A DNA stretch of 64,000 nt from positions 13,828,501 through 13,892,500 of the forward strand of contig OZ018417.1 of the NCBI GenBank assembly GCA_963969595.1, in the 5' to 3' direction. This DNA is from Neckera pumila. Lineage: Eukaryota > Streptophyta > Bryopsida > Hypnales > Neckeraceae. A program made the translations under genes and the position numbers. The notes below the pieces were generated by a model that was not told the DNA's origin, made no database searches, and saw only the letters and a program-made list of their open reading frames with translations. How positions within the stretch are numbered: the first letter of the stretch is position 1; each line of letters starts with the position of its first letter. Positions 421-63,065 of the stretch are shown one piece after another.

Positions 421-1358
421 TTAACCCCTAAAGGACCATTGTTCCTTTAGGGGACAAATGGGATTTCGGGCAGGTACCTATGGACTAAATTTTTGTCGTG
501 ATTTTTTGAAACTTTTTTTGAAGATAGGAAAACTGCTAAGCTTCATGGGAATATAATTTTTTTTTCAATCGGTGCCCAGGAAAAAAAGTTATGCCCAAAT
601 AAGCTCAAAACAATGGACGTCAAGTAGCCAAAAATTTTTTTTTTTTATTTCTTAATTTTTTTTAATTTTTTTTCTTATAGATTATATTTTTGTCTATCTA
701 GGAAGCTTTAATTCATTTCATTTGGATTTGTTATGAGAAAGTTATGGACAATCTTGTTTTGGGGGCACTTAGAGCATCTTCCTGAAAAAAATAACTCGTA
801 TGATTCATTTCTGAACGCAATTTTTACAATTTTTCAAAAAACAAAGTTCCGCAAAGTCTAGTTTTTTTGCTAGAACAATCTCACCATTGGGATTAGTATT
901 TTTTAATTCCATCTAAAAGATATTAATATTTTAGATTTTCCTTCTACCTTGTGCCTACTTCTACTTAACAATTTTTTTAATTATAAATTATAAAAATTAA
1001 GTTTTTTTGGATTTCCTTTTTTTTCCTAGACTGTCAACTCAATTCTCCACTATAAAGATTAAAAGCTCAAAACTCTATAGTGCAAAAAATTAAAGTTAAA
1101 AATGTTCGAAAGTCAAAAAATCTAGTCCCGCAATGTGCTGAAAAACTTGTTTTTTTCACTTTAAACGCATATATCTTGCAATCTGTGCAGTCAAAAATTC
1201 TGAATTTTTTTCCACATATTGTCATACTAGTAAGGTATAAGACCCTATGATTCGATGTGAAAAAAACACTTTTTTCAATTTTTTTTACTCTTTGCTATAG
1301 AAATGGCAGTTTTGAGTGTTTTTTGGCAGAAAAAAGGCCTTGGTCCTTTAGGGGTTAA
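421..1358 (+). mobile_element. TTAA (piggyBac-like) MITE, type A, complete
   Basis: Runs from TTAA (421-424) + CCCCTAAAGGACC to TCCTTTAGGGG + TTAA (1355-1358), 938 bp including both TTAAs. Terminal inverted repeats are about 13 bp. The interior is AT-rich with no open frame. It matches the copies at 4486, 5933, 60699 and 62134 along its whole length. Plus orientation is defined here as the end with GGACCATTGT first. Confidence 0.88.
425..453. repeat. Mini-hairpin at the left end of a type A element
   Basis: CCCCTAAAGGA is followed, after a 7-base loop, by TCCTTTAGGGG, so the terminal repeat is repeated in inverted form just inside the end. Other type A copies keep this arrangement in mutated form (5937-5965 and the right end of 4486-5415). 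The opposite end lacks it, so the two ends are asymmetric. Confidence 0.85.
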
Positions 1359-3219: not shown

Positions 3220-3997
3220 AAAAATTCGCGTCATGGATTGCAAGATATAAGCATTCAAATTCATTGAAAATCATTTTCTTGGCCCTGCAAAATATAGGGC
3301 AGCTACACTTCCCAAGCTCACTTTTCTATAAAAAAATGTTCAAAATGGTGGTTCTTCTTGGATTCTTTTTCCTAGACAAGTTGTCCACATGTTTGAAAAT
3401 TTTCAGTTCATTTGGAATCGTACAACATATAGAAAAAAATAGTAAGTAGACAATAGTAGAGAATGATTCAAAATACTAAATTGTTAAGAGTTGAATTATA
3501 GAATTGAAAAATTCCAATCCCAATGGTTGCAATGTTGTTATAAATATCTACATTCTATGATTTTATTTTTTTCAAAAAATATTGAAAATCGAGTAAGATA
3601 AAGGACTTCAAAGTTTATTTTAGAATAGACAATTCATAATTGCCTTTAATCAAAAACTCCTCATAATTTTTGACTCATTGATCAAAAATTCAAAATAGAA
3701 TGATTCAAAGCTTTCTATGTATATATAACTTTAGAAATCCAATTTCAAATTCTTATTTCTAAAAAAGTGATTTTTTTTATCAGCTTGGATTGCCCATTTA
3801 CAAAATATATATATATTTTAGGCCATATTTTTTTATTCATACTTCCAAATGTCATGAAATTTAGTGCATATGAAAGATATTCCTTGTTCCCACCTTTGAT
3901 TAAAGTTTGGGCCAAAAATATAGAAATTTCTAGTCACACATACTTGCCCAAAATTGCTATGCAGCCAAAAAATACATTCTGGTCCTTTAGGGGTTAA
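3220..3997 (+). mobile_element. TTAA element, type B, left end missing
   Basis: From about 3220 the sequence follows the interior of the complete type B element at 21986-22854 (GGCAGCTACACTTC, AAATGGTGGTT) and finishes GGTCCTTTAGGGG + TTAA (3994-3997). The first part is absent. The hAT element ends only about 30 bp before the homology begins. Confidence 0.75.
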
Positions 3998-4485: not shown

Positions 4486-5415
4486 TTAATCCCTAAAGGA
4501 CCGAGGCCCTTTTTCTACCAGAAAACACTCGAAACTACCATTTCTATAGCAAAAAGTAAAAAAATCTGAAAAAAGTTTTTTTTCACATCTAACCATAGGA
4601 TCTTACACCTAACTAGTATGAGAGTGTGTGGAATAAATTTCAGAATTTTGGACCGCACAGATTGCAAGATATCTACGTTTAAAGTGAAAAAAACAAGTTT
4701 TTCAGCACATTATGGGACTAGATTTTTTGATTTTGAACATTTTTAACTTCTTTTTTTTGCACTGAAGAGTTTTGAGCTTTTAATGTTTATATTGGAGAAT
4801 TGAGTTGAGAATCTAGCCAAAAAAAAAAAGTTCAAAAGAACTTAATTTTCATTATTAAAAAAATTGTTAAGTAGAAGTAGGTACGAGATAGAAGGAAACT
4901 CTAAAATATTTATATATTTTAGGTGGGATTAAAATGCACTAATTCCAATGGTGAGATTGTTCTAGCAAGTAAAATAAACCATGTAAAAAAGAAAAATTTG
5001 AAAAATTTGAAACATAGCATTCAGAAATGAATCCTATAAATTATATTTTTCAAAAAGATGCTCTAATTTCCCAAAAAACAAGAATGTCCATAACTTTCTC
5101 ATACAAAATCCAAATGAAATGAATTAAAGCTTTCTAGATAGACAAAAATACAATCTATGAGAAAAAAAATACTTAAAAAAAAACAAAAAAAAACTGCAAT
5201 TTTTTTACCCTGCCCGCCATCCCCTGTTTTGAGCTTATTTGGTCATAACTTTTATTCCCAAGCACCGATTGTGAAAAAAATTATATTCCCGTGAAGCTAA
5301 TCAGATTGTCTACCTCCAAGAAAAGTTTCAAAAAATGAAAAGAAAATTTCAGCCCGCAGGTACCTGCCCGAAAATGCATTTGTCCCCCAAAGGACAATGG
5401 TCCTTTAGGGGTTAA
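4486..5415 (-). mobile_element. TTAA MITE, type A, complete, inverted
   Basis: TTAA (4486-4489) is followed by TCCCTAAAGGACCGAGGCC, and the element ends CAATGGTCCTTTAGGGG + TTAA (5412-5415), 930 bp. It is the reverse complement layout of the 421-1358 copy. The first base of the left inverted repeat is mutated (T for C). Confidence 0.86.
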
Positions 5416-5932: not shown

Positions 5933-6862
5933 TTAACCCCTAAAGGACCATTGTTCCTTCAAGGGACAAATGGGATTTCGAGCAGGTACCTACAGGCTAA
6001 ATTTTTGTTGTGATTTTCTGAAATTTTTTTTGGAGATAGAAAAACTGATAAGCTTCGTGGGAATATAATTTTTTTTCAATCGGTGCCCGGGAACAAAAGT
6101 TATGCCCAAATAAGCTTAAAACAAGAGAGAGGGGTAGCAAAAAAAAATTTCAAAAAATTTAATTTAATTTTTTTAATTTTTTTTCCTTATAGATTGTATT
6201 TTTGTCTATTTGGAAAGCTTTGATTCATCTCATTTGGATTTTTTATGAGAAAGTTATGGACAATCTTGTTTTTCGGGCAATTAGAGCATCTTCTTGGAAA
6301 AAAGAACTTGTAGGATTCATTTTGGAATGCAATTTTTGCAATTTAAAAAAAAAAAAAAGTTCCACATGGTTTAGTTTTTTTGCTAGAATGATCTCACCAT
6401 TGGGATTAGTGCACTTTAATTCCATCTAAAATATATGAATATTTTAGATTTTCCTTCTATCTTGTATCTACTTCTACTTAACAATTTTTTAAGAATGAAA
6501 ATTAAGTTTTTTTGAATTTCTTTTTTTTTCCTAGACCCTCAACTCAATTCTCCACTAAAAGGATTTAAAGCTCAAAACTTTGTAGTGCAAAAAATTTAAG
6601 TTAAAAATGTTCAAAGTCAAAAAATCTAGTCCCGCAATGTGCTAAAAATCTTGTTTTTTTCACTTCAAACGCAGATATCTTGCAATTTGTGCGGTCAAAA
6701 ATTTTGAAATTTTTTCCTTACATTTTCATACTAGTTAGGTACAAGATCCTATGGTTAGATGTGGAAAAAAGATAATTTAAATTTTTTTGTACTCTTTGCT
6801 CTAGAAATGGTAGTTTTGAAAGTTTTTTGGCAGAAAAAAGGTCTTGGTCCTTTAGGATTTAA
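5933..6862 (+). mobile_element. TTAA MITE, type A, right end mutated
   Basis: Begins TTAA + CCCCTAAAGGACCATTGTTCC at 5933 and ends GGTCCTTTAGGAT + TTAA at 6859-6862, 930 bp. The last two bases of the right inverted repeat are AT instead of GG, so this copy is probably immobile. A TTTAA pentamer flanks both sides. Confidence 0.84.
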
Positions 6863-7751: not shown

Positions 7752-8194
7752 TTAACCCCTAAGTGATTCTGGGTGTCTTTCAATACATCTGTAGTTTTGT
7801 ATATAGCGTAAGTGCGATGTACACAGCCTTGCCTGTGAATGTTTTATTGTCCATCGAATTTGTATTTATTTTCTATTGAATGTGCATTGAAGTCTTCTAT
7901 CAAAATGCACACTTTCTGGATGCATTGGCCATACTACCAACTTTGTAAATATTGTAAAATTATATCTCTAGTACACGTATTTTTTTAGTAATACATACTG
8001 TAACATATTTGATAGCATCTCATTTCAACAATAAGCATTGCAATATTTTTCTAAAAACATATGAAAATCAATGACTATTGCACCTTCAGTTTTGTAGTTT
8101 ACATATTTGGCCAATACTTCAAGGAATTTGGCAAATACGGGTCGCATATAAATCCAGCGGACACAATGTGTTCTCTAATCAACTTAGGGGTTAA
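7752..8194. mobile_element. Short TTAA element, type D (443 bp)
   Basis: Starts TTAA + CCCCTAAGTGATT (7752) and ends AATCAACTTAGGGG + TTAA (8191-8194). The inverted repeats agree at 9 bases and then with one or two mismatches. The interior does not match type A or B, so it is a separate subfamily with the same target preference and the same CCCCTAA terminus. Confidence 0.75.
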
Positions 8195-10170: not shown

Positions 10171-11092
10171 TTAACAACAACGGACCAAGGTGATTTTCCA
10201 ATTAAAAAACACTCAAAACTGTCATTTCTATTGTAAAGAGAAAAGAACTTTAAAAATTATTTTTTCTTGAATATCCAACCATAAGATCTTATACTTGACT
10301 AGTATATAATTACGTGGAAGAAATTTCAGAAACATTGACATGTAGATTTTAAGATATATGCATTTAAAGTGAAAAAAACAAGTTTGTTTGCACTTTGCTT
10401 GACTAGTTTTTGGCTTTGAATATTTTTAGTTCAAATCTTTTGCACTATTGATCTTAAATTTCTACTTATTTATGTTAGATAGCTGAACTGAGAACCTACA
10501 AAAAAAATTTAGGCCAAAAAAATGCATAATTTTCACTCATTAAGAAATTGTTAAGTAGAGGTGGATTCAAGATTAAAGAAAGAACTAAATTGTTAATAGC
10601 TTTTAGACGGAATTGAATCACAATAATCCCGATGGTGAGATTGTTCTAGAAAAAATAATAACCTTGTCTAACAATTTTTTGGGAAAATTCTAAAAATTTC
10701 ATTCAAAAATGAATTCTACAAGTTATTTTTTCAAGAAAATGCTTAGATTGCCTGAAAAACTAAGATTGTCCATAACTTCCTCATTCTAAATCCAAATTGA
10801 ATGAAACAAAGCTTCTCATGTAGAAAAAAATATAATCTTTGAGAAAAAAAATTGAAAAAAAATTATTTTGCCTTTTTGTGATTTTTTTGGTGCAGCCCCC
10901 TGAACTCCATTTTTGCTTATTGTGCCATAACTTTTGCTCCGGGCATCAATTAAAATAAAATTTATAAATTCACAAAGCTCTCACAAAATTAAAAAAGCAA
11001 CAAAAAATTCCAAAAAATATCACTAAAATTTGAGATAGTAGGAACGGACCCAAATTGACCCCTAAGGGGACAAATGGTCCTTTTAGGTTTAA
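10171..11092 (-). mobile_element. TTAA element, type A, degraded copy
   Basis: Starts TTAA (10171) with the corrupted end CAACAACGGACCAAGG and ends CAAATGGTCCTTTTAGG + TTAA (11089-11092). The interior follows the inverted type A copies motif by motif but with many substitutions, so this is an old copy. Confidence 0.7.
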
Positions 11093-11791: not shown

Positions 11792-12090
11792 AACTCAGCA
11801 GACTTCAGAGGCCATTTAGGCATAGTAAAACAACCTTTTTTGAAGAACTTTCAACTAACAAAAGTTGCAAAATCAAGTTAACTCTTACCTCCAAAAATTC
11901 TTTTGCAATTCAAAGTCTCCAATCAAAAGTTATGGACAACATTTTGTCCATAACTTTTGATTGGAGACTCGGAATTGCAAAAGAAAATTTGGAGGTAAGA
12001 GTTAACTTGATTTTACAACTTTTATTAGTTGAAAGTTTTTTGAAAAAAGTTGTTTACTATGCCTAAAGGTCCTCTAAAGTCTACTGAGTT
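11792..12090. repeat. Long palindrome inside foldback element, copy 1
   Basis: Arms of about 145 nt run from AACTCAGCAGACTTC to its complement GTCTACTGAGTT. The centre, near 11942, pairs CAATCAAAAGTTATGGACAA with its exact complement. A transcript would form a near-perfect double-stranded RNA. Confidence 0.9.
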
Positions 12091-12767: not shown

Positions 12768-13935
12768 TTAACCCCTAAAAAGTCCCAAGGCCATTTTGTA
12801 GTCAAAAACCACTGAAAACTGCCATTTTTGCTGCGTTCACCTAAAAAACCGGAAAAAACATTTTTTTCATAAATCTAACCGTAAGATGTTGTGTTTGACT
12901 TCACTAAGATCATGTGGTAAAAATTTCATCAAGTTTGACCGTACGGATTGGAAGAAAATTGCATTCAAAATTTGAGCAAAAGTTTTTCTGTGTGCTGCCC
13001 TGAAATTTCAGATGACTTTGACTGCCATTTGTTGAAATTTTTTGCACTACAAACTTTGAGTTTAAAATTCTAACATATTGTAGATCATGTTAAGAACATG
13101 TCCACCAATTTTCAGAAGATTTGGAGACTTACAACATTTCCAAAAAAATCTTGCAATGCAACTATGTTCTGAAAAATGACAATACAATACTTTTTTTTGC
13201 AATGAGATTTGGTAGCCCATTCTTTCAGATCTGACAAATCCCAACGGTAGATAGAAAAATGCAGTCATTATTCACAAGATCCTCAAATAAAAATTTGAAA
13301 AAATTTTTTTACCTCCATTCTATGCAATTTCAAAGACCTATGGTATGAACAAAAAGGAAAATGCCATTGGGCAACTACCAAAAACGGGTCCATGATGTCC
13401 CCTGTAAAACCCAGTATGTTCTCCATTGCGTTCCCAACATTGAAAATGCAGGAGCTCCCCACCTTCATCGAAGATCCTTCATCTACTTCAATCAACTGCC
13501 TTCTTTGTAGTTTCCCAATAAATTTCACCATACCATGCATATGGACTTGCAGACCACATAGGAGTCATTGGAAGCATGAGGTATACTCCTAGGATGGGTA
13601 GAGAGTAGTATTTGCACAGAAAGCTTGCAAAAAAATTCTTCAAACTCCAGAGTGATGGCATATCTCCTACAAGTAAAATAAAAAATGCTAGGAGGCCATA
13701 AACAACAACATTTGAGCATTCTAAAATATTTAAAACTCTTTTGAAAATTATTAGTTATTGCCAAAAAAATATCCTAAAATCATTGGAAATTCATAATAAC
13801 AATCTTTTTTGTTTTTCATTTCATTTGAATTGTAAGTAGCCGTCACTGCAACATTTGCTTGTAAATGAAAAATGGCCAAACACCAACATTGTAAAAAATG
13901 AATGTGTAATTGATACTTACTTGTTCAACATCATC

Positions 13936-14316
13936 TCAACAAAGATTTTCATGGTATTTTTGGAAGCATCCTTTTTGCCAACACATGAACTTATTGCCAC
14001 AAGTAGGGCAATATGTTTTAGGTCTTGTCAATAGCAGTGAGCCATCATTGCAAACCACGCAATGATTTTGGACCTGCGTAAATATTGGATAGCACACTCG
14101 CCTACTGTGGGGTCCTTATTCAAATTTAGTACGTCTCTTTTGAAGCCATCTCGCAGTCAATAATTCGCACAATTTAGTGCAAAACTACAAATGTGTCATA
14201 GGACACTTTGGAGGATCTCGTGCCTTGCACTTGTCCACATAAATGATGTACATGTTCACGATGCTAGTGTTGACAAGGAAAAAGAAAACCCGATGCATCA
14301 AACCACACCCATAAGG
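13936..14316 (-). pseudogene. piggyBac transposase, C-terminal fragment with stops
   Basis: A single reading frame of 127 codons, read downward from 14316, has two internal stops and a terminal TGA at 13936-13938. Its first part, VFFFLVNTSIVNMYIIY, resembles the conserved hydrophobic segment that follows the catalytic core of piggyBac transposases (an asparagine followed by an aliphatic/aromatic run ending IIY). About 80 codons later comes a cysteine-rich block: HCVVCNDG, then YCPTCG, then FMCWQKGCFQKYH. That spacing (CxxC, CxxC, C, C, YH) is the C-terminal zinc-binding domain of this family, known to bind element ends. Nothing upstream in this frame continues past a TGA at about 14323-14325. 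The two stops and missing catalytic core make it non-functional. The family call rests on motifs plus the TTAA termini; a profile search was not possible here. Confidence 0.75.
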
Positions 14317-15069
14317 CCCCCCTCAAGGCCTCAACCGGGTCCTCTTATCCCCCAATATGCTGCATTTTTTTCCCTTCAAATTTCACCCAAAATGTTCCCA
14401 AGTAATGGCTTATGCAAAGGACTCCATTGCTTGGTTATACAATGTTATGTTCCCACAATAGAAAACAGGAACTACGTTAGGATAAATAACCTAGAACAAA
14501 AACAAATATGGAAATCAAAATAGAACAAAAATTGGACAAGAACAGAAATAAGGGAAAAGGAAATGAAGTTGTGAATGGAAAAGAGTGATGAACAAAAACT
14601 GATCGTAGACATTCAACAAAATTTGATCATGGACTTTGAACCAAAAATTTAGAGAAGAAGAAAGGATAAAATGTGCTAGCAAAGAAATAAGAAAAAAGAG
14701 GAAGGACCAAAAACAAAAAAAGAAAGAAAAATTGTGCAATATTTGATCAATGGTAAAAACGGACACAATTTTTTGACTCCCTCACTTGTCTCCCCAAAGT
14801 CATTCTAGGGGTGTATGTAAAGAAAATGTAAACCCTACTTTATGCTAGAAGAATTTATCTTGTATGCGCCTCTTGCTCAATTTGGGACCATTGATTGCAA
14901 ATATGAATTTAAAATTTGCAAATTCTATCATGTGTGGCAAATAAAAAATTTCAGCATTTTTCCTTGGGAATGAGCAAGGGGTTTGTTCATAAGGGAGGGA
15001 GAAAAAGGATAACATAGAGGAATAGAAAATTAAATAAAATAAGGAGAAAAAAAAAAAAAAACACGGACA

Positions 15070-15330
15070 GGGGCCAAGCAAACTCACCTACTTGCTGCAG
15101 AGTGCCTCCTCGTGTTGGGTTGAGGCCGGGGGCGCTCTCTGGTTGAAGATGCACTGACTGCTTGCTCCCAAGTCGGGGACACGCTCCCTTGAAGGTTCCC
15201 CGCTCTCTCCAAGTTCCCCGCCTGCTGCAGGGCTGCCGTGCAGACTGCCCTCCTCTTCTCCCTCGACAGACACCCGCTGCCCTTCCCAAATCCGATTTGC
15301 TCATCCAAAGACTGACCCCTTTCAAAGTCA
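15070..15330. other. GC-rich segment inside the long piggyBac-type element
   Basis: Markedly richer in G+C than its surroundings and open in more than one minus-strand frame, but with no ATG. On the minus strand it ends in AAG|GTAGGTGAG, a strong splice-donor-like sequence. It could be a 5' exon or promoter region of the lost transposase gene, or a captured host fragment. Neither is shown. Confidence 0.35.
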
Positions 15331-15628
15331 AAGGAAATTTGCCTAACCAGCCTGCCCCTCCAGTTTGGTTTGGGCAAAAATTCCCCATAACTTTTTCATC
15401 CGGCATCGGATTGGAATAAAAATTACATATCCACAAACCTCTCGGAAAGCTACACGTCCTCAAAAAGTTTCAAAAAATCACAATATAATTTCAGCCTGTA
15501 AATACCTACCCAAACTCCAAATTGTTCCCCGAGGGGACAATGGGACTTTAGGGGTTAAGGAATAGATGGTTACAAGTAAAATAAATTGACAAAGCTTTTG
15601 AACTCTTAGTAATTTTTTTTTGGTTCAC

Positions 15629-15687
15629 TTGAACTTCTAAAGGACCATTGTCCCTTCATGGGACAAAATGGATTTCAAGCATGATCC
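15629..15687 (+). mobile_element. Remnant of a type A TTAA element next to the LTR
   Basis: CTTCTAAAGGACCATTGTCCC and the following GGGACAAAATGGATTTC match the left end of type A elements. The homology stops exactly where the left LTR starts, suggesting that the retrotransposon inserted into an older TTAA element. The other half was not found beyond 22925. Confidence 0.55.
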
Positions 15688-15900
15688 TATCAAAAATGGG
15701 ATTGAAATACAAAACAAGGACAAGATATATTCACGATATAGAAATATTCAAGATTAAATACAAAATATATAAGTAATAAGAGGAGTTGTTGAGACTGTTC
15801 CTTGGTCTCGACATCTTCATATACTTAAGTTTCTTTTATTTTAAGCCTAAGTTTCTATTTTAAAGACCTAGAACTTCTACAAGGTTCTATCTCCATGACA
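15688..15900 (-). repeat. Left LTR (3' LTR of the element), 213 bp
   Basis: Aligns from GGGATTGAAATA to ATCTCCATGACA with the outer parts of 21844-22925. The LTR has the form TGTCA...TGACA; here the first end reads TATCA. It carries the single TTAA (in ATACTTAAG) that is interrupted in the other LTR. Confidence 0.85.
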
Positions 15901-15942: not shown

Positions 15943-16163
15943 CTATCTAGATCTTGGTTTGCCTAGTTGTTGCCGATGAAATGCTTGGATCTTCAATGAT
16001 GCATTTATTAAATTTGAAGTAGGTTCCCAAGTACGCTCACTAATTGGATATCCACTCCAATGAACAAGATATTTTAGTTGACCTTGTCGTATCCTCAAAT
16101 CTAAAGTATCCTTGACTTTGTATTCTTGACAATCATCTATCTCTATAGGAGGCGGTGATGCTT
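15943..16163 (-). pseudogene. Integrase C-terminus with intact chromodomain
   Basis: An open stretch ends at TAG (15943-15945). It contains EYKVKDTLDLR (from 16125) and LKYLVHWSGYP followed by TWEPTSNL, a textbook chromodomain with its conserved aromatic residues (Y, W, W). Such domains direct integration of chromoviruses to marked chromatin. It is the best preserved part of the element. Confidence 0.85.
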
Positions 16164-16376
16164 GAATTCTATCAAGAAATTAGATTCTCTATAGATTTAC
16201 AAAAGTGAAGTGTGAAAAACAAGATGTACCTTCACGGATGCAGGTAATTCCAATTAATATGCAACAACATTGATTGATCTGTTTTTCAATTTGAAACGGT
16301 CCAATCCTGCGGTAGTCATGTTTATCACTTGGTCTGGAAGTCTTGATGTTGCATTGTAGTAGCCATACCTTATTGC

Positions 16377-17418
16377 CTACTTGAAAATTTGGTTGCTCTT
16401 TTTTTTCACATCAACAGATTCCTTGTAACAAACTTGAGCTTCTTCAAGATGTTCTTCTTTTGTAATTCTTTCATATGTGTTGCAAAATCCTCTACTGCAA
16501 GGCTCTCTCCCTTCCAGCTGGTAGCATATTAATCTTGGGGTGGTATCTATAATTAATACAAAATAAAATCTCTTCTGCAGGGCTCTCTCCCTTCCAGTTG
16601 GTAGCATATCAATCTTGGGGTGGTATCCATAATTAATACAAAATAAAATCTCTTGTGTAGATGCGTGCACGCTGTTGTTGTAAGCAAATGCGGCTAGTGG
16701 CATCAAAGAGGTCCAGTAATCTTGTTAGTAGTTGATAGTACACCAAAAATATTGCTCCAAGACTTGATTTATACGCTTCATTTGTCCATCTATTTGTGGA
16801 TGAATGCCTGATGAAAGCTTGATCTTCACTTTCAAAATTTAATTAGCGATTGCCAAAGTTTGAAGATGAACTGCGGTCCACGATAAGACACAATATCATC
16901 GGATAAGCCATATAGCAATAAATATTATCAATAAAGAGCTTAGCTATTTTCTTGCCTATGATTGTGTTCTTACATGGAACAAAATGTGCCATCTTTGAAA
17001 ATCGGTCTACTATTATACAACTACTATCAAACTCCAATGAAAGTGGCAAATCAATGATGAAGTCCATTGAAACAGATGACCATGGTTATTTTGGAATCGA
17101 TAGTGGTTGTAGTAATCCATATTAAGGCCAATGACGGAAATTCTTGAAACAGGAACATATATCACATAAAAGTAAAAATCCCTTTATAGTCTTCCGCATT
17201 TGATGCCACCAAAAATTAGGAGAAATGAGCTCCAAAGTCTTGTTGTATCCAAAATGTCCAACAGTTGGAAGGTTGTGACAAGCTTGCAAGATTTGGAGAC
17301 ACAGAGGTCCTTCAGGAATGTACAAACGTTCTTCAAAATATAGAAGCTTGTCTTTGATTTTGAATTTACTAGAATCTTCAGGCTTATCATGAAGGGCTTT
17401 GTTTGATATCAAGAACAA
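16377..17418 (-). pseudogene. Integrase region, broken
   Basis: From high to low coordinate: an H-H-C-C zinc-binding part (CHNLPTVGHFGYNKT, then LLLCDICSCFK; 17122-17418), the core start DFIIDLP with VDRFSKMAHFVP (16843-17067), and the segment PLAAFAYNNSVHAST with INYGYHP (16377-16706). They are in different frames separated by stops. A 79-bp tandem duplication (16498-16655) repeats the NYGYHP part. Confidence 0.82.
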
Positions 17419-21843: not shown

Positions 21844-22925
21844 TGTCAAGGATGGGATTGAAATATGAAACAAGTATAAGATATATTCATGATATAGAGA
21901 TATTCAAGATTAAATATAGAATAAATAAATAATAAGAGGATATGATAAGACTGAAGAATTTCTCAATCTTGACTTCTTTATATACTTAACCCCTAAAGGT
22001 CAGAGACTATATTTTCACCAAAAACGCTCCAAAATTGCCAATTCTAGTACAAGTACCAAATTTTAGAAAAAAACACATTTTTGGTCACATATAACCGTAG
22101 GATCTTGTAGTAAGCTTGTTTGAGAATATGTAGAAAAAATTTAGAATTTAGAATTTCCCACCATGTGGATCGCAAGATATTACCATTTTAATTGACAAAA
22201 CCCCTTTTTTTGGCGCTGTGAAAAAACGGGCAGCTACACTTCACAAGGTCACATTTAAATGAAAAATGTCCAAAATGGTGGTTACTCTTTGGATTCATTC
22301 TTCAAAGAAAGTTGGCTACATGCTTGAAAAACTTTAGATCATTTGGAATTGTACAACACATGTGAAAGAAATAGGTTGTAGATAGAAATAGAGAATGATT
22401 CAAAACACTAAATTTGTTAAGAATTTAATTATAAAATTGAAATATGTCAATTCCAATGGTTGTAATGTTGTAATAAATAATATACATTCTATGCTTGTAT
22501 TTTTTTCAAAAAATATTAAAAATTGAGTTAAATAAAAGACTCCAAAGTTTATTTTAGAATAGGGAATCCATAACTGCCCGCAAACTAGAACACCTCAATT
22601 TCAATTTTTTATTTTTTTAAAAAGGGATTTTTCAGAATTTTTTGAGATGCCCGCCCACCATTGAAAATGACATATCATTCAATAACTTTTTAACCATGTC
22701 GTCAAAAGTTTCGAAAATTGTTGGGCCTTAAAGCTAATCCTTGGGCATACATGGTGTGAAATTTTCAAAGAAATATAATAAAATTTTTGTTCGCAATGAG
22801 CTCCCCAAAATTACTATTTTGCTAAAAAATGCCATTTGGTCTTCTAGGGGTTAAGCTTCTTCTACTTAAGCCTAAGTTTCTATTTTAAAGACTTAGAACT
22901 TCTCCAAGGTTCTATCTCCGTGACA
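21844..22925 (-). repeat. Right LTR (5' LTR), split by a TTAA element
   Basis: 21844-21989 and 22851-22925 together align with the left LTR, from TGTCAAGGATGGGATTG to ATCTCCGTGACA. The 865-bp interruption begins and ends at TTAA. Confidence 0.85.
21986..22854 (+). mobile_element. TTAA element, type B, complete, inserted in an LTR
   Basis: TTAA (21986-21989) + CCCCTAAAGGTCAGAG to GGTCTTCTAGGGG + TTAA (22851-22854), 869 bp. The left LTR shows the unoccupied site with one TTAA, so insertion duplicated this tetranucleotide. It is the reference copy for type B. Confidence 0.9.
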
Positions 22926-26672: not shown

Positions 26673-27857
26673 CTAGGATCGTTGAATAGACGTCACTCTG
26701 CCGATGATGGCTCCAATGTTCTTGTTCAAAGTGCCTAGTCCGTTCACCAGCCGGTCCAGCTTGTTGTCCACGCCCTCGATCATCTGCAGCTGCCGCTGCC
26801 GCGCGTCATCGCCCGTCAGCCCCGTGCGCTCCATCCTCTCCATGTGCTGCCGCAGGAGCTCCATGGTGAGCTCGGCGCGGATGTTGAGCGCCTCCTCGCG
26901 CTTCTCCGACGCCTCCAGCCTCACAGTGATGAGCTGCTGCATTTCACGTACAATGGCGCAGCTGGACGAATGTCGGTGCTCATGCTGGCTTGCCTCACCA
27001 TCATGCACTTCCTCGTCATGGCCGCCCCCACCCGCCTTGCTCGGCAGCTCCGGCAGGTCATCCTCCGAGCCCGAGTCCACAAGCTCAATGTCAGGCATGC
27101 GGTTGGAGATGTCGCTCGCGACTTCCAACCACACATCATAGAACTTCGGCTTCAGAAGCTCACGAACTGCCTTGCCGGAGTACACATCCGCGTTGCTCTC
27201 GTGCGCAGCACGCTTCTCCAAGCGCAGCTTGTACTTGGTGCACTCGCGGCGCACCTTCCAGTACTTGCTCTCGCACTGGTTCTTGGTGAACTCCCTGCCG
27301 AACTTCTCCTGCATGGTCTTGATAATGGGGTCCCACTTCTTCTGGTTCTTCACCTTGCCGCGGCTCTCGATGAAGAGACGCCGGTGCACGTCGTCGTAGG
27401 TTTCGAACAAGTACTTCACCATCTCCTCCGTCCAGGGCACGGCGGTCTCGATCTCCTTGCGCTTGCGCTTGCGGCCACCCTTCCTATCTCCGTCGGAGCT
27501 GAAATCGTCCAGCTGCTTAGAGGAGCGCTCCGGCTTCTTCCCACGGTGGAGCTTGCCCTTGCCGTGATCTTCCCCCACGGTCTTCATGCTCGGGTGCTCC
27601 TTCCAGACTTCGCCTTGGTCCGTCCAGTTCAATGTCCCTGTGTCTAGAGAGTAGTCCATGTCGCCATGCTCGTCGAATCCTATTGAAACACCATCTTTCC
27701 AAATCTCACGGTCTTTGCGCTTCGGGGCTCGTTTTGTTTCTACATCGGGGAAGCCGATTTGCGTGGCGGCGAAGCCCCCACTCCACGCGCCATAGCCGCT
27801 GCTATCGAGCACTCCGGGAGAAAAGAGAGCCAAATGATCGCCGCTAGTCGACTGCAT
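26673..27857 (-). CDS. Trihelix / Myb-SANT-like DNA-binding protein
   Basis: A 394-residue intronless protein. I chose the ATG at 27857 because the frame upstream has no ATG before an in-frame TAA, about 65 bases further up. A basic cluster, GGRKRKRKE (residues about 127-135), is a likely nuclear signal. It is followed by a helical DNA-binding domain (about 141-216) with the regularly spaced aromatics of the trihelix/SANT fold: PWTEEMVKYLF, KKWDPIIKTM and NQCESKYWKVRRE. An acidic, serine-rich linker (about 257-290) follows. The C-terminal third (about 301-344) is rich in E, R, L and M and predicts a coiled coil for dimerisation. The layout fits a plant transcriptional regulator in the nucleus. 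Target genes cannot be inferred. The coding region is GC-rich against AT-rich flanks. Alternative: a SANT-like domain of the type also found in transposase-derived proteins. Confidence 0.82.
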   Translation of the reverse strand: MQSTSGDHLALFSPGVLDSSGYGAWSGGFAATQIGFPDVETKRAPKRKDREIWKDGVSIGFDEHGDMDYSLDTGTLNWTDQGEVWKEHPSMKTVGEDHGKGKLHRGKKPERSSKQLDDFSSDGDRKGGRKRKRKEIETAVPWTEEMVKYLFETYDDVHRRLFIESRGKVKNQKKWDPIIKTMQEKFGREFTKNQCESKYWKVRRECTKYKLRLEKRAAHESNADVYSGKAVRELLKPKFYDVWLEVASDISNRMPDIELVDSGSEDDLPELPSKAGGGGHDEEVHDGEASQHEHRHSSSCAIVREMQQLITVRLEASEKREEALNIRAELTMELLRQHMERMERTGLTGDDARQRQLQMIEGVDNKLDRLVNGLGTLNKNIGAIIGRVTSIQRS

Positions 27858-29419
27858 GGAAAAAGCGGGAGGGTCGGGACCCGCGCCGGCACCCACTTCG
27901 CAAGGTGCCCTTCTTCTGGTGGATGACGCCTCAGAAGCTCCTTATACAGGTCGCAAATTTACTGCACAGCGCCATTTCAAATCATGCGAGTAAGTGCACT
28001 GGATAGTGATTTGCAATCGTCCAAAATCACTCCACGAGTTAGGCGATTTCTTCTCACAACTACACTAATGCCTCAGTTCAGAAGCAGCAGCTAATCCAAC
28101 TGACCTAAGAACAATGCAATCAACCTTCCCAACGTGATACAGGTCAGAATGGGCACCCAAATACCACCTTCGAGATCTGAGAAGTGTCACGAAAGCATAC
28201 TAAGGAGAGAGGCGGGTAAAGTCTTGGCTACCTTGATAGAAGAGCGAGTGGCTGGCCTACTACAGGCGTTCAACTGCTTGTTGACCTTTTTTTAAGCTCA
28301 TCCTCTGTTTGCAAGACTGTTCAGTCTGGAGAAGCCTGTACATAGACAACACGAAATAAATTGGTATTATTAATTAAGTACGCACCCTGCCTCTATTCCA
28401 AAACAAAACGCACACTCAAAATCCTTCTAAAATTCGCGAATCCCAAATAACTCGGAAGAGAATCTTCATAACATCCAAGCGCATATCGCATACTCTGAGA
28501 AAGGTTGCGACCATCGTGCAGTATAGGTGAACGACCTGACGGCAAACCAAGAGGAAACTAAGGTTAGTAGCCACGACACAAGCATATCGTGACTCGAAAT
28601 CACTTGAACATACAAAACGCGTACACAAAACGAAAGCTACCACATACCCTTAAAGTCCATTCCAAAGGCCACGGTTACAACCCACGCACGCATATTCTAA
28701 ACTCACAACAGCACAGACGCACATCTTGCCTCAAATCCTCAAAGAACCTAGCCCTCTTCAGAAACTACTCCCCTTCCACCACAACCCAAACCGAGAATCC
28801 ACAACCCAACCGAGAATTTCACAGAAAACTCTCCAAGAAACACTCAAACCTGCCAAAATCTCACCCACGAACCAGCCACCCCCCACCCTCACTACCCCAT
28901 TTCCACAAACCCTTCCCCACCTCCACGAAACCGCTCAAAGCCACCACCAAAGACTCAAAACCCACATAAGCGAACACATAAGCGAACACAAGCAAGTCCA
29001 GTTCAGTTCAGTTCAGTCCGGTCCAGGATCCCACCTGTCTAGTGCACCCTGCCCTTGAGAGAACCTCCTTCTCGTCGCACCACGCATGGAGAATGGAATC
29101 GCCCGACGGAAGCCTCCTCCCACCTGACCTTCTTGTTCTCCCCGAGTGTGGTTTCAAGCCCGTTTTGGAACGGCGGAATGGGAAGAACGACTTGGAAGAC
29201 GAGTGATGAAGACGGATTTGATGGCGATGGCGATCCTGGAGGGGAGGGCCAAGCTAGGCAAAGTGCAAGGAAGGAGGAGCACTGGCGAAAGCACCTTCTG
29301 CTGAGGGACCAAGCCACCATCCCTGAATTCCCTTTCGGGAGGTGCCCGGGAAGCAGCTGCGAAGCTAGAGGCGCCACGAGCAGCGCTTTTTTTAAAGAAG
29401 GAGCCAGCGAGTTCTTCGG
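27858..29419. other. Upstream region of the trihelix gene
   Basis: No separate gene is supported. The region 29040-29400 is GC-richer, with overlapping frames on both strands, and may hold 5' UTR or leader exons of the minus-strand trihelix transcript. A short run of AGTTC units lies near 29000. Confidence 0.4.
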
Positions 29420-32412: not shown

Positions 32413-32770
32413 ACTAGTGTGACCCTGTGCCATTGGCCCAATTTTCATCTACTCTCGGTTCCACTCCTGGTTCTACTGCCGATTCTATTCCCAGTTCTAC
32501 TCCTGGTTCCACTCCCAGTACCATGAACGCCACCAAAATCAAAGTAAAAGTAATTTTCTAATTTTTTAATCAATAAATACTTTGAAATTCAATAACTTTT
32601 GCACCACCGCTCCAAACGCCACGAAACCAAGCCGGTGCACCCCTCCTCGGCGAGAGCTTTCCAACGGTACCAAGCACGCAGCCGGGGGACGCACGGTCAG
32701 GAAGTTGTCCACGCTACAAACAAAACAAAACAAACAAACAAACAAACAGCCTCATTTAAGGTATTGATGT
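32413..32770 (+). repeat. GTTT/CAAA-rich dispersed repeat (family X)
   Basis: Starts ACTAGTGTGACCCTGTGCC, continues with degenerate 12-bp units of the form GGTTCCACTCCT, then a conserved core including CGGTACCAAGCACGC and GGGGGACGCACGGTC, then (CAAA)n, and ends CATTTAAGGTATTG. Five other copies lie in this window. The layout is that of a short non-coding retroposon, but no target duplication was verified. Confidence 0.7.
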
Positions 32771-33083
32771 TGTAAAATGTATAATTCAAAATGGTCTAAA
32801 TTTTATATCACTACAATCCATGAAGAACATTATATCCATTCAAAGCAACCAAAATAAAAATTGGACCCAAGCAAGCTTTGAATATGCGAACTCAAAACTA
32901 CTAAAAAAAACAGGAAGTAAAATCAAGAGCCTTTTAGTGGGACAAAGGTAGTAGTATGCAAACACCCTAGAATGCATGCATATAAGGAAAAAATAGATAG
33001 AACATAATATTCTTGAATAAGTGGGAGGACCCTTTTCTTTCTTTGCTTCCCATAAACTTACATTTATACTTTTCCCAAGGTTA

Positions 33084-33893
33084 TTAACCCCTAAAGGTCA
33101 GAGACTATGTTTTCACCAAAACTACTCAAAATTGCCATTTCTAGTACAAGTACCAAATTTTAGAAAAAGAACATTTTTGGACAAATGTAACCATAGGATC
33201 TTGTATCATACTAGTTTGAGAAGTTGTGAAAAAAATTCAAAAATTTCCACAATGTAGATTGCAAGATAATAGCGTTTGAGTTCACAAAATCCTTTTTTTG
33301 TCCCTGCAAAAATTTGGGCAAGTGCACTTCACAAGGTCACATTTGTATGAAAAAAATTCCAAAATGGTGGTTACTCTTTGAATTCATTCTTCACGACAAG
33401 TCAGCTACATACTTGAAAATTTTCAGATCATTTGAAATTGTACAACATATAGGAAACAGATAGTAAGTAGAAAAAAATAAAGAATGATTCAAAATGCAAA
33501 ATTGTTAAGAATTTAGATGTGGAATTGAAAAATGCCAATCCCAATGGTTGTAATGTTGTAATAAACAATCTACATCTAAAGTTTGTATTTTTTTCAAACA
33601 AACACTGAAAATTGAGTTAAATAAAGGACTTTAAAGTTTATTTAGAGTAGAGATTCCATAAGTACCTTCAAACTAAGAATCCTCATAACTTTCTTCTCAT
33701 CAATCAAAATGGAATGATTAAAAGCTTCCCGCTTATATATAAATCTAAAGAACCAATTTCAATTTTTTTTTTTTTTTAAATGATTTTAGAGAAAAAATTT
33801 GAACTGCCTGGACTGCCCGCCGACCAATGAAAATTACATATTGTACAATAACCATGTAGTCAAAAGCTATGAAATTTTTTGGGCCTTTAGAGG
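33084..33893 (+). mobile_element. TTAA element, type B, right end missing
   Basis: TTAA + CCCCTAAAGGTCAGAG at 33084, then homology to 21986-22854 up to GTAGTCAAAAGC and TTTTTGGGCCTTTAG. After this the sequence diverges and no GGGGTTAA end follows. Confidence 0.75.
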
Positions 33894-35184: not shown

Positions 35185-35547
35185 CCCTTAAGTTTGGCTG
35201 TTTGTTTGTTTTGTTTGTTACGTTGAGATCTCTCGGATTGTGCGTCCCCCGGTTGCGTGCTTGATACCGTTGGAAAGCTCTCGGCGAGGAGGGATGCATA
35301 GGCTTGATTTTGTGGCATTTGGAGTTACGGTGCGGAAGTTCTTGAATTTTGAAGTATTTATGGATCCAAAAAATAGAAAATTACTTTCACTTTGATTTTG
35401 GTCATGTTTTTGTACCGTCAGAAAGCTCTTGGCAAGGAGGGGTGGATGGGCTTTGTTTTGTGGCATTTGGAATGACAGTGTGGAAGATATTGAATTTCAA
35501 AGTTTTTACTAAGATTTTGGCTGTGGCAACGACACAGGGCACACTAC
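35185..35547 (-). repeat. Family X repeat, diverged, with internal duplication
   Basis: CCTTAAGTTTGGCTGTTTG start, core with TACCGTTGGAAAGCTCTCGG, end GACACAGGGCACACTA. The core segment with GAAAGCTCT...GAGG...TTTTGTGGCATTTGG appears twice in a row (about 35265-35390 and 35410-35520). Confidence 0.65.
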
Positions 35548-37792: not shown

Positions 37793-38040
37793 AGTATGTC
37801 CTTTGCTGTCGCTATAGCCAAAAATAGAAAATAAAAGTAATTTTTAAATTTTTAAGTTCATAGATACTTTGAAATTCTATATTTTGCACACCATAGGTCT
37901 AAACGCCACAAAACAAACTCCATGCGTTCTTCCTTGCTAGCTAAAGGCTTTCCAATGGTACCAAGAATGCAACTGGGGATGCACGGTCTAGAAGGTCTCA
38001 CCATAACAAACCAAACCAAACCAAACCGCCTAAATTAATG
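37793..38040 (+). repeat. Family X repeat, degraded
   Basis: TGTCCTTTGCTGTCGC start, core AATGGTACCAAGAATGC and GGGGATGCACGGTC, then (CCAAA)n and CCTAAATTAATGTAT. The 12-bp units are missing. Confidence 0.55.
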
Positions 38041-38234
38041 TATGCATTATATTTTTTTGACAAAACATGAATTTGTTATAATTTTTGGAAGTTGAATAGG
38101 ATTTTTGATAAAGACATGGTTGCAAGCATTTCTTTATCAGAAACTAATCAGATTTGTACACAATACGAAAGTTTCTCAAGACATATACAGAATGCACAAT
38201 ACTAGGGTGATTAGAGAGGGTTAAGGGACAGAGT

Positions 38235-42378: not shown

Positions 42379-42772
42379 TTAACCCTTTAACCGTGTAACA
42401 TTGCCGTGGACACTAAGTGTCTAATGAATGACAAAGAATCTGTGTATGTAGGACAGAAATGCGATTATTCATCCTTGGAATTTTGTGCAAAAAGGGTAGA
42501 CCTTCTAAAGTAGCTTGTCCTCAAATGAGTGCTTTTGGTTTTCTTAAAATAGATGATGCACATTGTGGTAATCCGTGGAATTCTTTTTTGATATAGTGTG
42601 CATCATTTACTTTAAGAAAACCAAAAGTATTCATTTGAGGTTAAACTACTATGCAAGGCCTCCCCTTTTTGCACGAAATTCCAAGGATGAACAATCGCAC
42701 TTCTATCCTACATGCAAAGATTCTTTGTCATTCATCGGACACTTAGTGCCTGCAACAGTGTTACAGGATTAA
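42379..42772. mobile_element. Hairpin element flanked by TTAA
   Basis: TTAACCCTTTAACCGTGTAAC at the left faces GTGTTACAGGATTAAC at the right, and the two halves pair over arms of roughly 185 nt (ATGAATGACAAAGAATC, TTCATCCTTGGAATTT, TTTTGGTTTTCTTAAA all occur in both). Total 394 bp. The TTAA boundaries and CCC start resemble the piggyBac-like elements, but the interior is unrelated. It lies about 310 bp upstream of the J-protein start codon. Confidence 0.8.
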
Positions 42773-42916
42773 CTTTAGAAGGACGTAGCCTCATACCAAG
42801 GTAGTCACCAAAACTTCTTCGATTATTGGACCAATAGGTGAATTGTTTGTTTCTACAATGAAAAATGAAGTCATCCATCAACCACTTTTTGACCTCACTC
42901 ATCCTTCAAGGGTTAA
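42769..42916. mobile_element. Single-arm remnant of a second hairpin element
   Basis: Starts at the TTAA shared with the preceding element and ends CAAGGGTTAA (42913-42916). It contains CCAAGGTAGTCACCAAAA and ATTATTGGACCAATA, as in the left arm of the next element, so it is a half-copy. Confidence 0.7.
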
Positions 42917-45080: not shown

Positions 45081-45842
45081 TACTCATGTTTTTTTCGAGA
45101 GTACTGTATAATTAGAAAAATGATTTAAAAAAAATATGAAAAATATGTTTAGTATATAAACCTTTAAGAAGAAGGTACCTTAAGAAGGAAAAGTATAGAA
45201 CTTTTTTCTAAATAGGAGAACTAGAAAAATGCAAAATCTCATGAAAATAGGTACTTTCACATTTTAATTTGTAAAAAATAGGAAAGCAAATTTAAAAAAA
45301 CTATAAATTGGCCATATGGAAAGAATCGATGGTGATGGGATTTCACCAAAAGAATGATCTTAAAACCATCTTCAATGTTCAAAAATACGTGCACAAGGGA
45401 GCCCTGTTTGCACTCATGTAGAGGACACAAAATAAAGTATATTTATATTTTCTTTGGTAGAAATATGACTTCCTACTATGGAAATAGTCTAGAAAAATTT
45501 TAGCTCTAGATAATTAATTTTGGATACTCTCCAGTACTAAAATCCCTTAAACCGCAAAGTGTGACAAATTAGGGAAATTAGAAATTCATTATAAAACTTA
45601 TTTTTTTTATTTATGAAAAATAATATGTCTCTTCACTATCAAGGGAGACTTCTTTAAAAAAAAATTCAAGTACATTGGCTTCAAGCTGCAAAAGTTATAG
45701 CTTATGACAACTCCAGGACGTCAAGTGTGACGCAAAATAGTATTGGTCTTTCTTGCATCCACCCTAAGCTTGTATATCATTAGAATTAATATCTTCATTT
45801 TGGGTAAGAATGTAGATGTAACGATTTAAGGAGCACTTAACA
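45081..45842. other. Spacer without recognised genes
   Basis: AT-rich. Nothing supported. Confidence 0.4.
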
Positions 45843-46280
45843 TCAATACCTTAAATATGGCTGTTTGTTTGTTTGTTTGTTTTGTTTTGTTTGTTTTGTT
45901 TGTAACGTTGAGATCTCCCGGACCGTGCATCCCCCGGCCGCGTGCTTGGTACCATCGGAAAGCTCTCACCGAGGAGGGGTGCACCAGCTTGGTTTTGTGG
46001 CGTTTGGAGCGGTGGTGCGAAAGTTATTGAATTTCAAAGTATTTATTGATTAAAAAATTAGAAAATTACTTTTACTTTGATTTTGGTGGCGTTCTTGGTA
46101 CTGGGAGTGGAACCGGGAGTGGAATCGGGAGTGGAACTAGAAGTGGATGAAAATTGGGCCAACGGCACAGGGCTACTGGGAGTGGAACCAGGAATAGAAC
46201 TGGGAGTAGAATTGGAAATAGAACCAGGAGTGGAACCGGGAGTAGATGAAAATTGGGCCAACGGCACAGGGCCACACTAG
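45843..46280 (-). repeat. Family X repeat, well preserved
   Basis: ACCTTAAATATGGCTGTTTG, (TTTG)n, the core with CATCCCCCGGCCGCGTGC and GAGGAGGGGTGCACCAGC, then degenerate 12-bp units (GGAGTGGAACCG) and GGCACAGGGCCACACTAG. The two blocks of 12-bp units each end in GATGAAAATTGGGCCAACGG. Confidence 0.75.
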
Positions 46281-49195: not shown

Positions 49196-49443
49196 ACCTT
49201 AAATCAGGTTATTTGTTTTTTTGTTTGTTTATTATGGTGAGATCTCTTGGACCGTACATCCCCCAATCGTGTTCTTGGTACTGTTGGAAAGCCCTCAACA
49301 AGGAGGGATGCACGGACTTTGTTTTGTGGTGTTTGAACCTGCGGTGTGAAAGTTATTAAATTTCTAAATTTTTATGAACTAAACAATTCGAGAATTATTT
49401 TTTCTTTGATTTTATTATATTGTAGCAATGGCACAGGGCAAGC
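49196..49443 (-). repeat. Family X repeat, degraded, upstream of RPL27a
   Basis: CTACCTTAAATC start, short TTTG run, GATCTCTTGGACCGTACATC and TTCTTGGTACTGTTGGAAAG core, end CAATGGCACAGGGCA. The 12-bp units are absent. Confidence 0.6.
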
Positions 49444-49809: not shown

Positions 49810-50250
49810 ATGACGACCCGACTGAAGAAGAACAGGAAGAAAAGAGGACACGTGAGCGCCGGGCACGGGCGTGTGGGCAAGCACCGCAAGCATCCGGGAG
49901 GTCGTGGTAATGCCGGAGGTATGCACCACCACCGGATTCTCTTTGACAAGTACCATCCAGGATACTTCGGCAAGGTTGGCATGAGGTACTTCCACAAGAC
50001 GATGAACAAGTTCCACTGCCCTATTGTCAACATTGATAAGTTGTGGTCTTTGGTGCCGACGGCCGTGAAGGAGAAGGTGAATGGAGACAGCAGCGCTCCT
50101 CTCCTGGATGTCACTCAGCACGGGTTTTTCAAGGTTCTCGGAAAGGGTGACTTGCCGACGCAGCCGATGGTCGTGAAGGCCAAGTTCTTCTCCAAGCTGG
50201 CTGAGAAGAAGATCAAGGAGGCCGGGGGTGCGGTCATTTTGACTGCTTAG
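49810..50250 (+). CDS. RPL27A: 60S ribosomal protein L27a (uL15)
   Basis: A 146-residue protein, the normal length for plant L27a, in one exon, as in Arabidopsis. It belongs to the large cytosolic ribosomal subunit. The N-terminus, [20 protein letters not shown], with [15 protein letters not shown] and [20 protein letters not shown] after it, is the strongly conserved basic, glycine-rich rRNA-binding extension of eukaryotic uL15. [16 protein letters not shown] and [15 protein letters not shown] form the globular part. I chose the ATG at 49810: the open frame continues upstream but has no earlier ATG in the 78 bases shown open, and the protein then starts exactly like its relatives. The coding region is GC-richer than its flanks. 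No damage is visible, so it is probably an active copy. Confidence 0.97.
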
Positions 50251-52750: not shown

Positions 52751-53227
52751 TCTTTTCTGAATTTGAGTCCAACTACTAAATTGAGGAATATCAAGTTTAA
52801 TTCCTATTCCAATTTTAAAATTTTAAAAGACCTAAAATCCAAAATTTAATTCCAGTTTGAACTTTTTAACCTATTATTATGGAATATTAATTTCCTAGTC
52901 TTAGAATGATTTAGTAAACGTTTTTGCATTACGATATTTTAAGATTTTTGGAGCATATTGTATTTGATATGAATTTTTTTTCAAACAAAATTTCAAATTC
53001 CCACAATTAAATCTGAAAATTTTAGGACATATACAAGACATGTCACTAGATCTCTGAAAACTGAAAACTGAAAACTGAAAAATTAAAAATTAAAAAATTA
53101 GAAAGTTAAAAAAGAAGAACTTTGGAGATTGAAAAAGTGGACATGGGCCCGTTCTTTCAGGATTACGGCGGTAGGTTAGGTACCTATCTATTGCCGCGCT
53201 AAGGTCCCAAGCGCGTGCTTCTTGGCT

Positions 53228-60698: not shown

Positions 60699-61612
60699 TT
60701 AACCCCTAAAGGTCCAAGGCCTTTTTTCTGCAAAAAACACACTCAAAACTGCCATTTCTTTAGCAAAGAGTAAAAAATATGAAAATTCTTTTTTTTCACA
60801 CATCTAATTATAGGATCGTACACATAACTAGTATGAGAATGTGTGCAAAAAATTTCAGAATTTTTTGACTGCACAGATTGCAAGATATTTGCATTTAAAG
60901 TGAAAAAAGAAGATTTTCAGAACATTGTGGGACTAGATTTTTTGACTTTGAACACTTTTAACTACAAAGTTTTGCACGACAAAGTTTTGATCTTTAATTT
61001 TTATAGTGGAGAATTGAGTAGAGAGTCTATCAAAAAAAAAAAAAAAAAAAAAAAAAGTTTTTAGTATTAAAAAATTGTTAAGTAGAAGTAGGTACAAGAT
61101 AGAAGGAAAATCTAAAATATTAATATCCTTTATATGGAATGAAAATACACAAATCCCAATGTTGAGATTGTTCTAACAAAAAAACTAAACCACATGGAAC
61201 TTTTTTCTTTGAAAAACTGTAAGAATTGCATTCAGAAATGAATCCTACAAAAAAAAAATTCAAGAAAATGCTCTAAGTGCCCGAAAAATAAGATTGTCCA
61301 TAAATTTCTCATAACAAATCCAAATGGAATGAATCAAAGCTTTCCAGATAGACAAAAATATAATCTATGGAGAAAAAAATTCAATTTTTGCAAAAAAAAA
61401 ATTTATTACCCCCTCTCCCCTGTTTTGAGCTTATTTAAGCATAACTTTTGTTCCCAGACACCAATTGAAAAACCAATTATATTCCCACAAAGCTTATCAG
61501 TTTTTCTATCTTTTCAAAAAGTTGCAAAAAATCAGGACAAAAATTCAGCCCACGGGTACTTGCCCAAAATCCCATTTGTCCCCTAAGGGAACAAATGTCC
61601 TTTAGGGGTTAA
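60699..61612 (-). mobile_element. TTAA MITE, type A, complete
   Basis: TTAA + CCCCTAAAGGTCCAAGGCC (60699) to AATGTCCTTTAGGGG + TTAA (61609-61612), 914 bp. The corresponding point in copy 2 of the surrounding duplication (about 62001-62004) has a single tetranucleotide, now TGAG. It contains a 24-base A run. Confidence 0.88.
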
Positions 61613-62133: not shown

Positions 62134-63065
62134 TTAACTCCTAAAGGACCAAGGCCTTTTTTCTACCAAAAAACTCTCAAAACTGCCATTTCTAGAGCAA
62201 AGAGTAAAAAAATATTTAAATTGTTTTTTTTTTGCACATCTAACCATAGGATCTTATACCTAACTAGTACGAAAATGTGTGGAAAAAATTTCAGAATTTT
62301 TGACAGCACAAATTGCAAGATATCTGCGTTTGAAGTGAAAAAAACAAGTTTTTTGGCACATTGCAAGACTAGATTTTTTGACTTTGAACATTTTTAACTT
62401 AAAGTTTTTGCACTATAGAGCTTTGAGCTTTAAATCTTTGTAGTGGAGAATTGAGTTGAGAGTCTAGGGAAAAAAAAGAAATTCAAAAAAACTTAATTTT
62501 TATTCTCAAAAAAATTGTTAAGTAGAAGTAGGTACATGATAGAAGGAAAATCTAAAGTATTAATATCTTTTAGATGGAATTAAAATGCATTAATCCCAAT
62601 GGTGAGATTGTTCTAGCACAAAAACTAAACCATGTAATACTTTTATTTTTGAAAAATTGTTAAAATTGCATTCGAAAATGAATCCTACAAATTATTTTTT
62701 TCAAGAAGATGCTCTAAGTGCCCAAAAAACAAGATTGTCCATATCTTTCTCATAAAAAATCCAAATGAAATGAATCAAAGCTTTCCAAACAAACAAAAAT
62801 ATAATCTATGAGGAAAAAATAAAAATTTTAAAAATTTGATTTTTTGCAAAATTTGTTTGTTGCCCCCTCTCCCCTGTTTTGAGCTTATTTGGGCATAACT
62901 TTTGTTCCCGAGCAGCGATTGAAAAAAAAATTATATTCCCACAAAGCTTATCAATTTTTCTATCTCCAAAAAAGTTTCAAAAAATCATGGAAAAAATTCA
63001 GCCCGTAGGTACCTACCCAAAATCCCATTTGTTCCCCGAAGAGACAATGGTCCTTTAGGGGTTAA
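62134..63065 (-). mobile_element. TTAA MITE, type A, complete
   Basis: TTAA + CTCCTAAAGGACCAAGGCC (62134) to CAATGGTCCTTTAGGGG + TTAA (63062-63065), 932 bp. Copy 1 of the duplication has the empty site TTAA at 61739-61742. Confidence 0.88.

Follow-up and report, generated by a model that had tools for sequence, protein, structure and literature searches.

A decayed piggyBac element and its complete relatives in a plant nuclear genome

The piggyBac transposase pairs the two ends of its element, cuts at their CCCC edge, excises the element precisely and inserts it at TTAA. Ends of the CCCT type are described in the accessible parts of PMC10813416 and PMC12732532. The latter, in the same parts, presents piggyBac evolution as well documented in animals and little documented in fungi and plants, and piggyBac itself as an occasional find in plants, exemplified by red algae. 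For land plants, the accessible text of PMC4438587 lists piggyBac for every taxonomic group in that study, among them land plants, that of PMC6890710 gives an annotation of PiggyBac in the fern Ceratopteris (1230 elements, 122 kb), and that of PMC8101967 merely names piggyBac in a list. Another paper on Ceratopteris (PMC9477723) contains no occurrence of piggyBac, and a lead from Niphotrichum (PMC10619864) was rejected, the accessible text holding only the word "piggybacking".

The locus described here, termed Q, lies in a 64,000-bp stretch of DNA that was analysed as a whole (the window) and had been predicted from its sequence to be a piggyBac-type element with a transposase remnant. This assignment is supported by a profile match of the remnant and by complete relatives that encode PF13843 transposases between ends of the same kind. 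With a probability of roughly 0.95, Q is dead and non-autonomous and belongs to a piggyBac family that resides in the nuclear genome of this plant.

Structure of Q and its transposase remnant

Two features by which membership of the piggyBac superfamily is recognized are present in Q, namely a TTAA target-site duplication, seen directly at both edges, and short terminal inverted repeats starting with CCC (Table 1). The edges read TTAACCCCTAAAAAGTCCCAAGG on one strand and TTAACCCCTAAAGTCCCATTG on the other, and the inverted repeat consists of CCCCTAAA followed, after a 2-bp length difference, by GTCCCA. Q is 2791 bp long with both TTAA copies counted, and its transposase is oriented from the right end toward the left end. 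The TTAA edges, inverted termini and 2.8-kb length of the original prediction were thus borne out. An interstitial telomere repeat was ruled out as the origin of CCCCTAAA: the left and right ends continue differently, and the ends border homologous units with related empty sites.

Table 1. Coordinates of Q, its parts and related elements (positions within the window)
Feature	Position	Strand	Evidence or remark
Q, piggyBac element, internally deleted and decayed	12768..15558	-	ends and TTAA; colinearity with complete 5.63-kb element; related empty sites
TTAA target-site duplication, left of Q	12768..12771	.	
TTAA target-site duplication, right of Q	15555..15558	.	
Left terminal inverted repeat of Q, CCCCTAAAAAGTCCCAA	12772..12788	+	
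Right terminal inverted repeat of Q, CCCCTAAAGTCCCATTGT (inward reading)	15537..15554	-	
C-terminal transposase remnant of Q	13939..14298	-	piggyBac profile match E 1.8e-6; own-genome matches up to 85% identity
Related empty site of Q	32728..32769	+	flanks continuous across one TTAA
A1, ~930-bp non-autonomous element, ends of Q kind	421..1358	-	
A2, ~930-bp element	4486..5415	+	
A3, ~930-bp element	5933..6862	-	
A4, 914-bp element	60699..61612	+	related empty site 61850-62102
A5, 932-bp element	62134..63065	+	
A6, degenerate A-type element, limits approximate	10179..11092	+	
B1, 869-bp element, ends CCCCTAAAGG / CCCCTAGAAG	21986..22854	+	related empty site 15687-15900
B2, B-type element, right end not found	33084..33887	+	
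B3, B-type element with right end at 3997 and no left end found	3234..3997	+	
S1, 443-bp TTAA-CCCCTAAG element	7752..8194	+	
C1, 538-bp TTAA-CCCTT element	42379..42916	+	parts 74-76% like sequence around transposase copy L030

The flanks of nine elements were joined at TTAA and compared with the window. Those of Q matched four repeats (52358-52314, 32728-32769, 45882-45841 and 49230-49190), each across a single TTAA and with 84-86% identity along 43-47 bases, interrupted by a 2-base gap; the matches are short, their left part being mostly AAAC repeat and only 12-14 bases lying from the start of the TTAA on. The related empty site of B1 matched at 84% over 219 columns and that of A4 at 76% over 263 columns, with the TTAA altered in the latter, and the remaining six of the nine elements had no clear empty site within the window. 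The repeats that provide the related empty sites of Q are copies of a ~340-bp family with AAAC/TGTT runs, possibly a SINE, found at 32413-32771, 45839-46172 and 52406-52751, with shorter copies at 35201-35402, 37828-38043 and 49195-49413.

The minus-strand frame of Q contains VFFFLVNTSIVNMYIIY and CVVC...CPTCGNKFMCWQKGCFQKYH with stops between them, so the cysteine block that was read at the outset as zinc-binding is there, in a frame broken by stops. The remnant comprises the tail of the catalytic domain and the cysteine block; only the C-terminal end of the transposase is kept, and the catalytic aspartates are absent. A piggyBac profile was made from those 96 of 120 listed piggyBac proteins that measure 540-700 aa, and was run against the six frames of the window in ~260 overlapping chunks. 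It matched the remnant of Q (E 1.8e-6) and no other place in the window, the next chunk elsewhere having an E value of 0.41. The piggyBac match expected of the remnant was therefore found with this profile, Pfam itself being silent: a Pfam scan of the remnant returned 0 families, and so no DDE_Tnp_1_7 (PF13843) match in Q itself, and the adjoining frame at 13488-13754 (minus strand) returned no family. A phmmer search of the PDB with the remnant gave two weak, unrelated matches and no piggyBac, and a protein-database search scored 0 of 71 candidates at E <= 10. The cysteine/histidine block is present in Q and its relatives, the structure model of 59 aa of the Q part being poor (pLDDT 49). A piggyBat-like cysteine pattern occurred in 0 of the 120 piggyBac proteins and, since Q escaped it as well, carries no information; the Trichoplusia ni pattern occurred in 6 of the 120.

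In its own genome the remnant matched 151 places (from 458 candidates) through query residues 45-163/164. Identities among the matches listed ran from 100% (the remnant itself) through 85%, over ~115 aa, down to 29%, and the best listed matches in open frames of more than 500 aa reached 69% (C3:2169689) and 70% (C5:24624047). The window has 15 occurrences of the motif TTAACCCCTAA, whereas 100 first-order Markov sequences average 0.02. Because of this excess, the profile match at a single place and the matches of the remnant to transposases of its own genome, the observation at Q goes beyond chance. Resemblance points to more than one candidate parent family for Q: the remnant points to the L019/L020 family (69-70%) over the 5.63-kb family (59-60%), whereas the ends look like those of the 5.63-kb family.

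Relatives of Q in the window and the genome

The window contains five full-length elements of ~930 bp (A1 to A5), mutually 80-89% alike, and a sixth that is decayed (A6). Their left ~200 bp and right ~100-175 bp match Q at 67-79%, and TTAACCCCTAAA has 13 exact occurrences in the window. A decayed A-type right end is also seen at 15637-15690, ~75 bp past Q. The B group has a further right end at 267-320, and no relative of S1 was found in the window. Bases matching a library of these elements amount to 11,765 of 64,000 (~18%) in the window, whose own members the library includes, against 991 of 40,000 (2.5%) in eight 5-kb comparison stretches that start from round coordinates and of which five showed no match; the window is therefore unusually dense and not typical of the genome.

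A palindrome close to the right end was compared with 60 shuffles. In a second complete family, L026/L027, it is perfect and equalled by 0 of the 60. It is good in A1, A2 and A4, where 0, 0 and 1 shuffles did as well, and weaker in Q (6 shuffles) and A3 (8 shuffles); in A5, in the three 5.63-kb copies and in the B elements it does not surpass the shuffles. Since its quality is uneven across the elements, no inference is drawn from it. Large palindromes of the window, perhaps foldback-type elements, lie at 59131-59266 (136 bp, perfect), 11792-12090 (~300 bp, imperfect) and 42387-42772 (386 bp, imperfect).

A PF13843 search of the genome itself, which measures 339.5 Mb in 18 contigs and has the window at C10:13828501-13892500, gave 872 first-look candidates, of which 116 were scored; 116 of 116 were above the cut-off, and a table count gave 35 with no stop within the match. 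The same search of 14 control genomes gave none. Complete elements were identified at three loci, L022, L023 and L024 (5630, 5634 and 5631 bp), which are 98.8-99.2% identical, have different flanks and carry TTAACCCCTAAAGTCCCA at both ends; their open frames from the first methionine are 567, 638 and 638 aa. The L024 and L022 proteins matched PF13843 (E 5.3e-81 and 1.3e-80), and in these two complete transposases, the ones scanned, no other Pfam family reached E <= 0.01. Residues D291, D382, D500 and D503 of the L024 protein align with D268, D346, D447 and D450 of T. ni piggyBac, the first three of which we take to be its catalytic aspartates. Intact relatives of the kind that the original prediction proposed to look for thus exist in this genome, and the transposases encoded by the complete ones with Q-type ends (567-638 aa) belong to PF13843.

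The recent complete copies are observed directly, as are the homology of Q to them and its internal deletion: Q is colinear with the complete 5.63-kb element, both ends matching at 72% and two transposase pieces at 75% and 79%. A genome search with one 5.63-kb copy gave 5837 candidates, of which 40 were scored; among these 40 the only full-length matches were L022 to L024 (99-100%). A fourth copy of the family, on contig C6, matched at 91% in two pieces, with ~260 bases missing from the match. In short derivatives of ~1 kb, a brief stretch without a match separates what is left of the two ends, ~170-320 bp of one and ~640-730 bp of the other. The second family is represented by two 5371-bp copies (L026 and L027) that are 98.9% alike; L027 has a frame of 987 aa and L026 a shorter one, open over 570 aa and 401 aa long when counted from a methionine. 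Each was inserted in a TTAA after an older CTTTTAGGGG- or CTTTAGGGG-type edge, this TTAA being at the same time the edge of an older TTAA-CCCC-type element, near 890 in L026 (82% match to A5) and near 356 in L027 (motif only). In L019 (5594-6302), and also in L020 and L025, the left end of that family is followed by tandem repeats of ~350 bp, past which a right end appears. The sequence around the transposase lineages L028 and L030 matches the short elements B1 and C1 (74-78%), a resemblance which suggests that each short family may have its own driver.

Matching ends are abundant. The exact 17-mer end TTAACCCCTAAAGGACC was counted 12,107 times in the genome, and its reversed control not once. 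A search with A5 gave 10,796 first-look candidates, which are not confirmed copies; the 40 that were scored all matched at >=89%, 37 of them, counting A5 itself, over positions 1-932 and three over almost that length.

The most probable history of Q begins with a relative of the complete 5.63-kb copies, which inserted in a TTAA beside an (AAAC)n-rich repeat and duplicated that TTAA; most of the transposase gene was lost by internal deletion, and the element decayed. We infer from the complete relatives that their DDD transposase would be enzymatically active, cutting at the CCCC ends and moving the element by excision and reinsertion at TTAA. The short relatives, which have the ends only, may be carried along in trans by whichever family drives them.

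The host and the alternative explanations

Five contig ends were fetched; one carries a (CCCTAAA)n array, with 163 units counted over 1200 bp, which we take to be the plant telomere type, two are N and two are without the array. The window contains an L27a gene at 49810-50247, whose best PDB chains are presumably plant ribosomes. The telomere-type contig end and the L27a gene support a plant as the host, probably a non-seed plant and perhaps a moss, to judge by the size of the genome and its roughly eleven large contigs. A remnant of a chromodomain Gypsy retroelement lies at 15943-16724 on the minus strand (PF00385, E 3.5e-13), with an 80-bp internal duplication at 16484-16654. By eye, its chromodomain looks like the type that the accessible text of PMC3350952 places in fungi, animals, green algae and non-seed plants and not in seed plants. 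A GC-rich stretch at 26673-27941 (minus strand) has a 422-aa open frame with a Myb/SANT-like domain just under the cut-off (PF13837, E 6.9e-6).

It is most improbable that this DNA is not plant at all and stems from animal or fungal contamination: piggyBac relatives are located on every contig from C1 to C11, the exact ends number in the thousands, one contig end is a (CCCTAAA)n array, and the best PDB matches of the L27a gene are presumably plant ribosomes. Contamination could draw on the documentation of piggyBac mainly in animals, fungi and protists (PMC12732532, accessible part) and on the adjoining chromodomain, which looks like a type common to fungi and animals (PMC3350952, likewise). 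No more credible is an origin of the ends from another superfamily that duplicates TTAA, such as Kolobok or Sola3, with the zinc-like frame arising by chance. Duplication of TTAA is not by itself unique to piggyBac, and Pfam is silent on the remnant; however, complete elements with ends of the same kind encode PF13843 transposases, a complete transposase has only piggyBac and piggyBat as PDB relatives at E <= 1, and the remnant shares as much as 85% identity with other places in its own genome and 69-70% with two open frames of more than 500 aa.

Recent acquisition of piggyBac by the plant through one horizontal transfer is unlikely, if less so than either of these. In its favour, the near-identical complete copies reflect recent movement, and the L024 protein, with 217 database matches, has no named plant protein in the 120 of them that were listed; within that list the nearest matches are unnamed (up to 68%) and the named ones are animals (Diadema 34%, Actinostola 31%). 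Against a single transfer, many decayed copies coexist with the recent ones, and in a quick tree, reduced by thinning from 106 rows to 79, the host is represented by 12 sequences spread over about five lineages (at least five label changes) among the unnamed sequences. The tree speaks more for a varied resident population than for a single recent arrival, though the unnamed sequences may themselves be from plants. A dead, resident piggyBac element thus remains the preferred reading of Q. A broader proposal is more tentative, at somewhat less than even odds: in this plant, probably a moss or other non-seed plant, several native piggyBac families may still be mobile, with intact autonomous copies driving thousands of short offshoots and with host control of their own.

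Comparison with known piggyBac systems

The original prediction had regarded piggyBac here as a notable extension to plants or as evidence of horizontal transfer. The novelty part does not hold, land plants being already listed in the accessible text of PMC4438587 and the fern Ceratopteris annotated in that of PMC6890710, and the transfer part was neither supported nor contradicted. piggyBac in land plants is already known; what is notable here is the recent complete copies and the abundance. A literature search, with most subscription papers outside its reach, turned up no description of recent, complete piggyBac families from a non-seed plant, and it is unusual for near-identical complete copies and thousands of matching ends to occur together in a land plant. 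With recent complete copies in two families, other lineages besides and ends by the thousand, this genome makes the history of piggyBac in plants directly testable, and its elements could be a source of piggyBac ends and transposases adapted to plants. The applications in plants that PMC12732532 cites in its accessible part rely on animal-derived piggyBac. The Ceratopteris and land-plant reports, as far as their accessible text goes, likewise place piggyBac in non-seed or land plants, as annotation counts or a list and with no complete copies, ends or recent movement described.

At E <= 1, the PDB matches of the L024 protein were only piggyBac of T. ni (PDB 6x67; E 1.6e-34, residues 150-618) and piggyBat of Myotis lucifugus (PDB 9c0f; E 1.7e-23, residues 125-539), in the latter case with the catalytic core alone aligning. 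The host elements have in common with T. ni piggyBac the TTAA duplication, ends that start with CCC, the DDD core and a C-terminal cysteine-rich region, a putative zinc domain. They differ from it in the cysteine block, which in the host reads C..C..RPKTYCP(T/S)(C/H)GNKFMC..KGCF..(Y/F)H, one host family having H for the fourth C. They also differ in length, the complete host elements measuring 5.4-5.6 kb and T. ni piggyBac 2472 bp (PMC10813416, accessible part). The left and right ends of the host elements are unlike each other, as they are in piggyBat according to the accessible text of PMC11707139.
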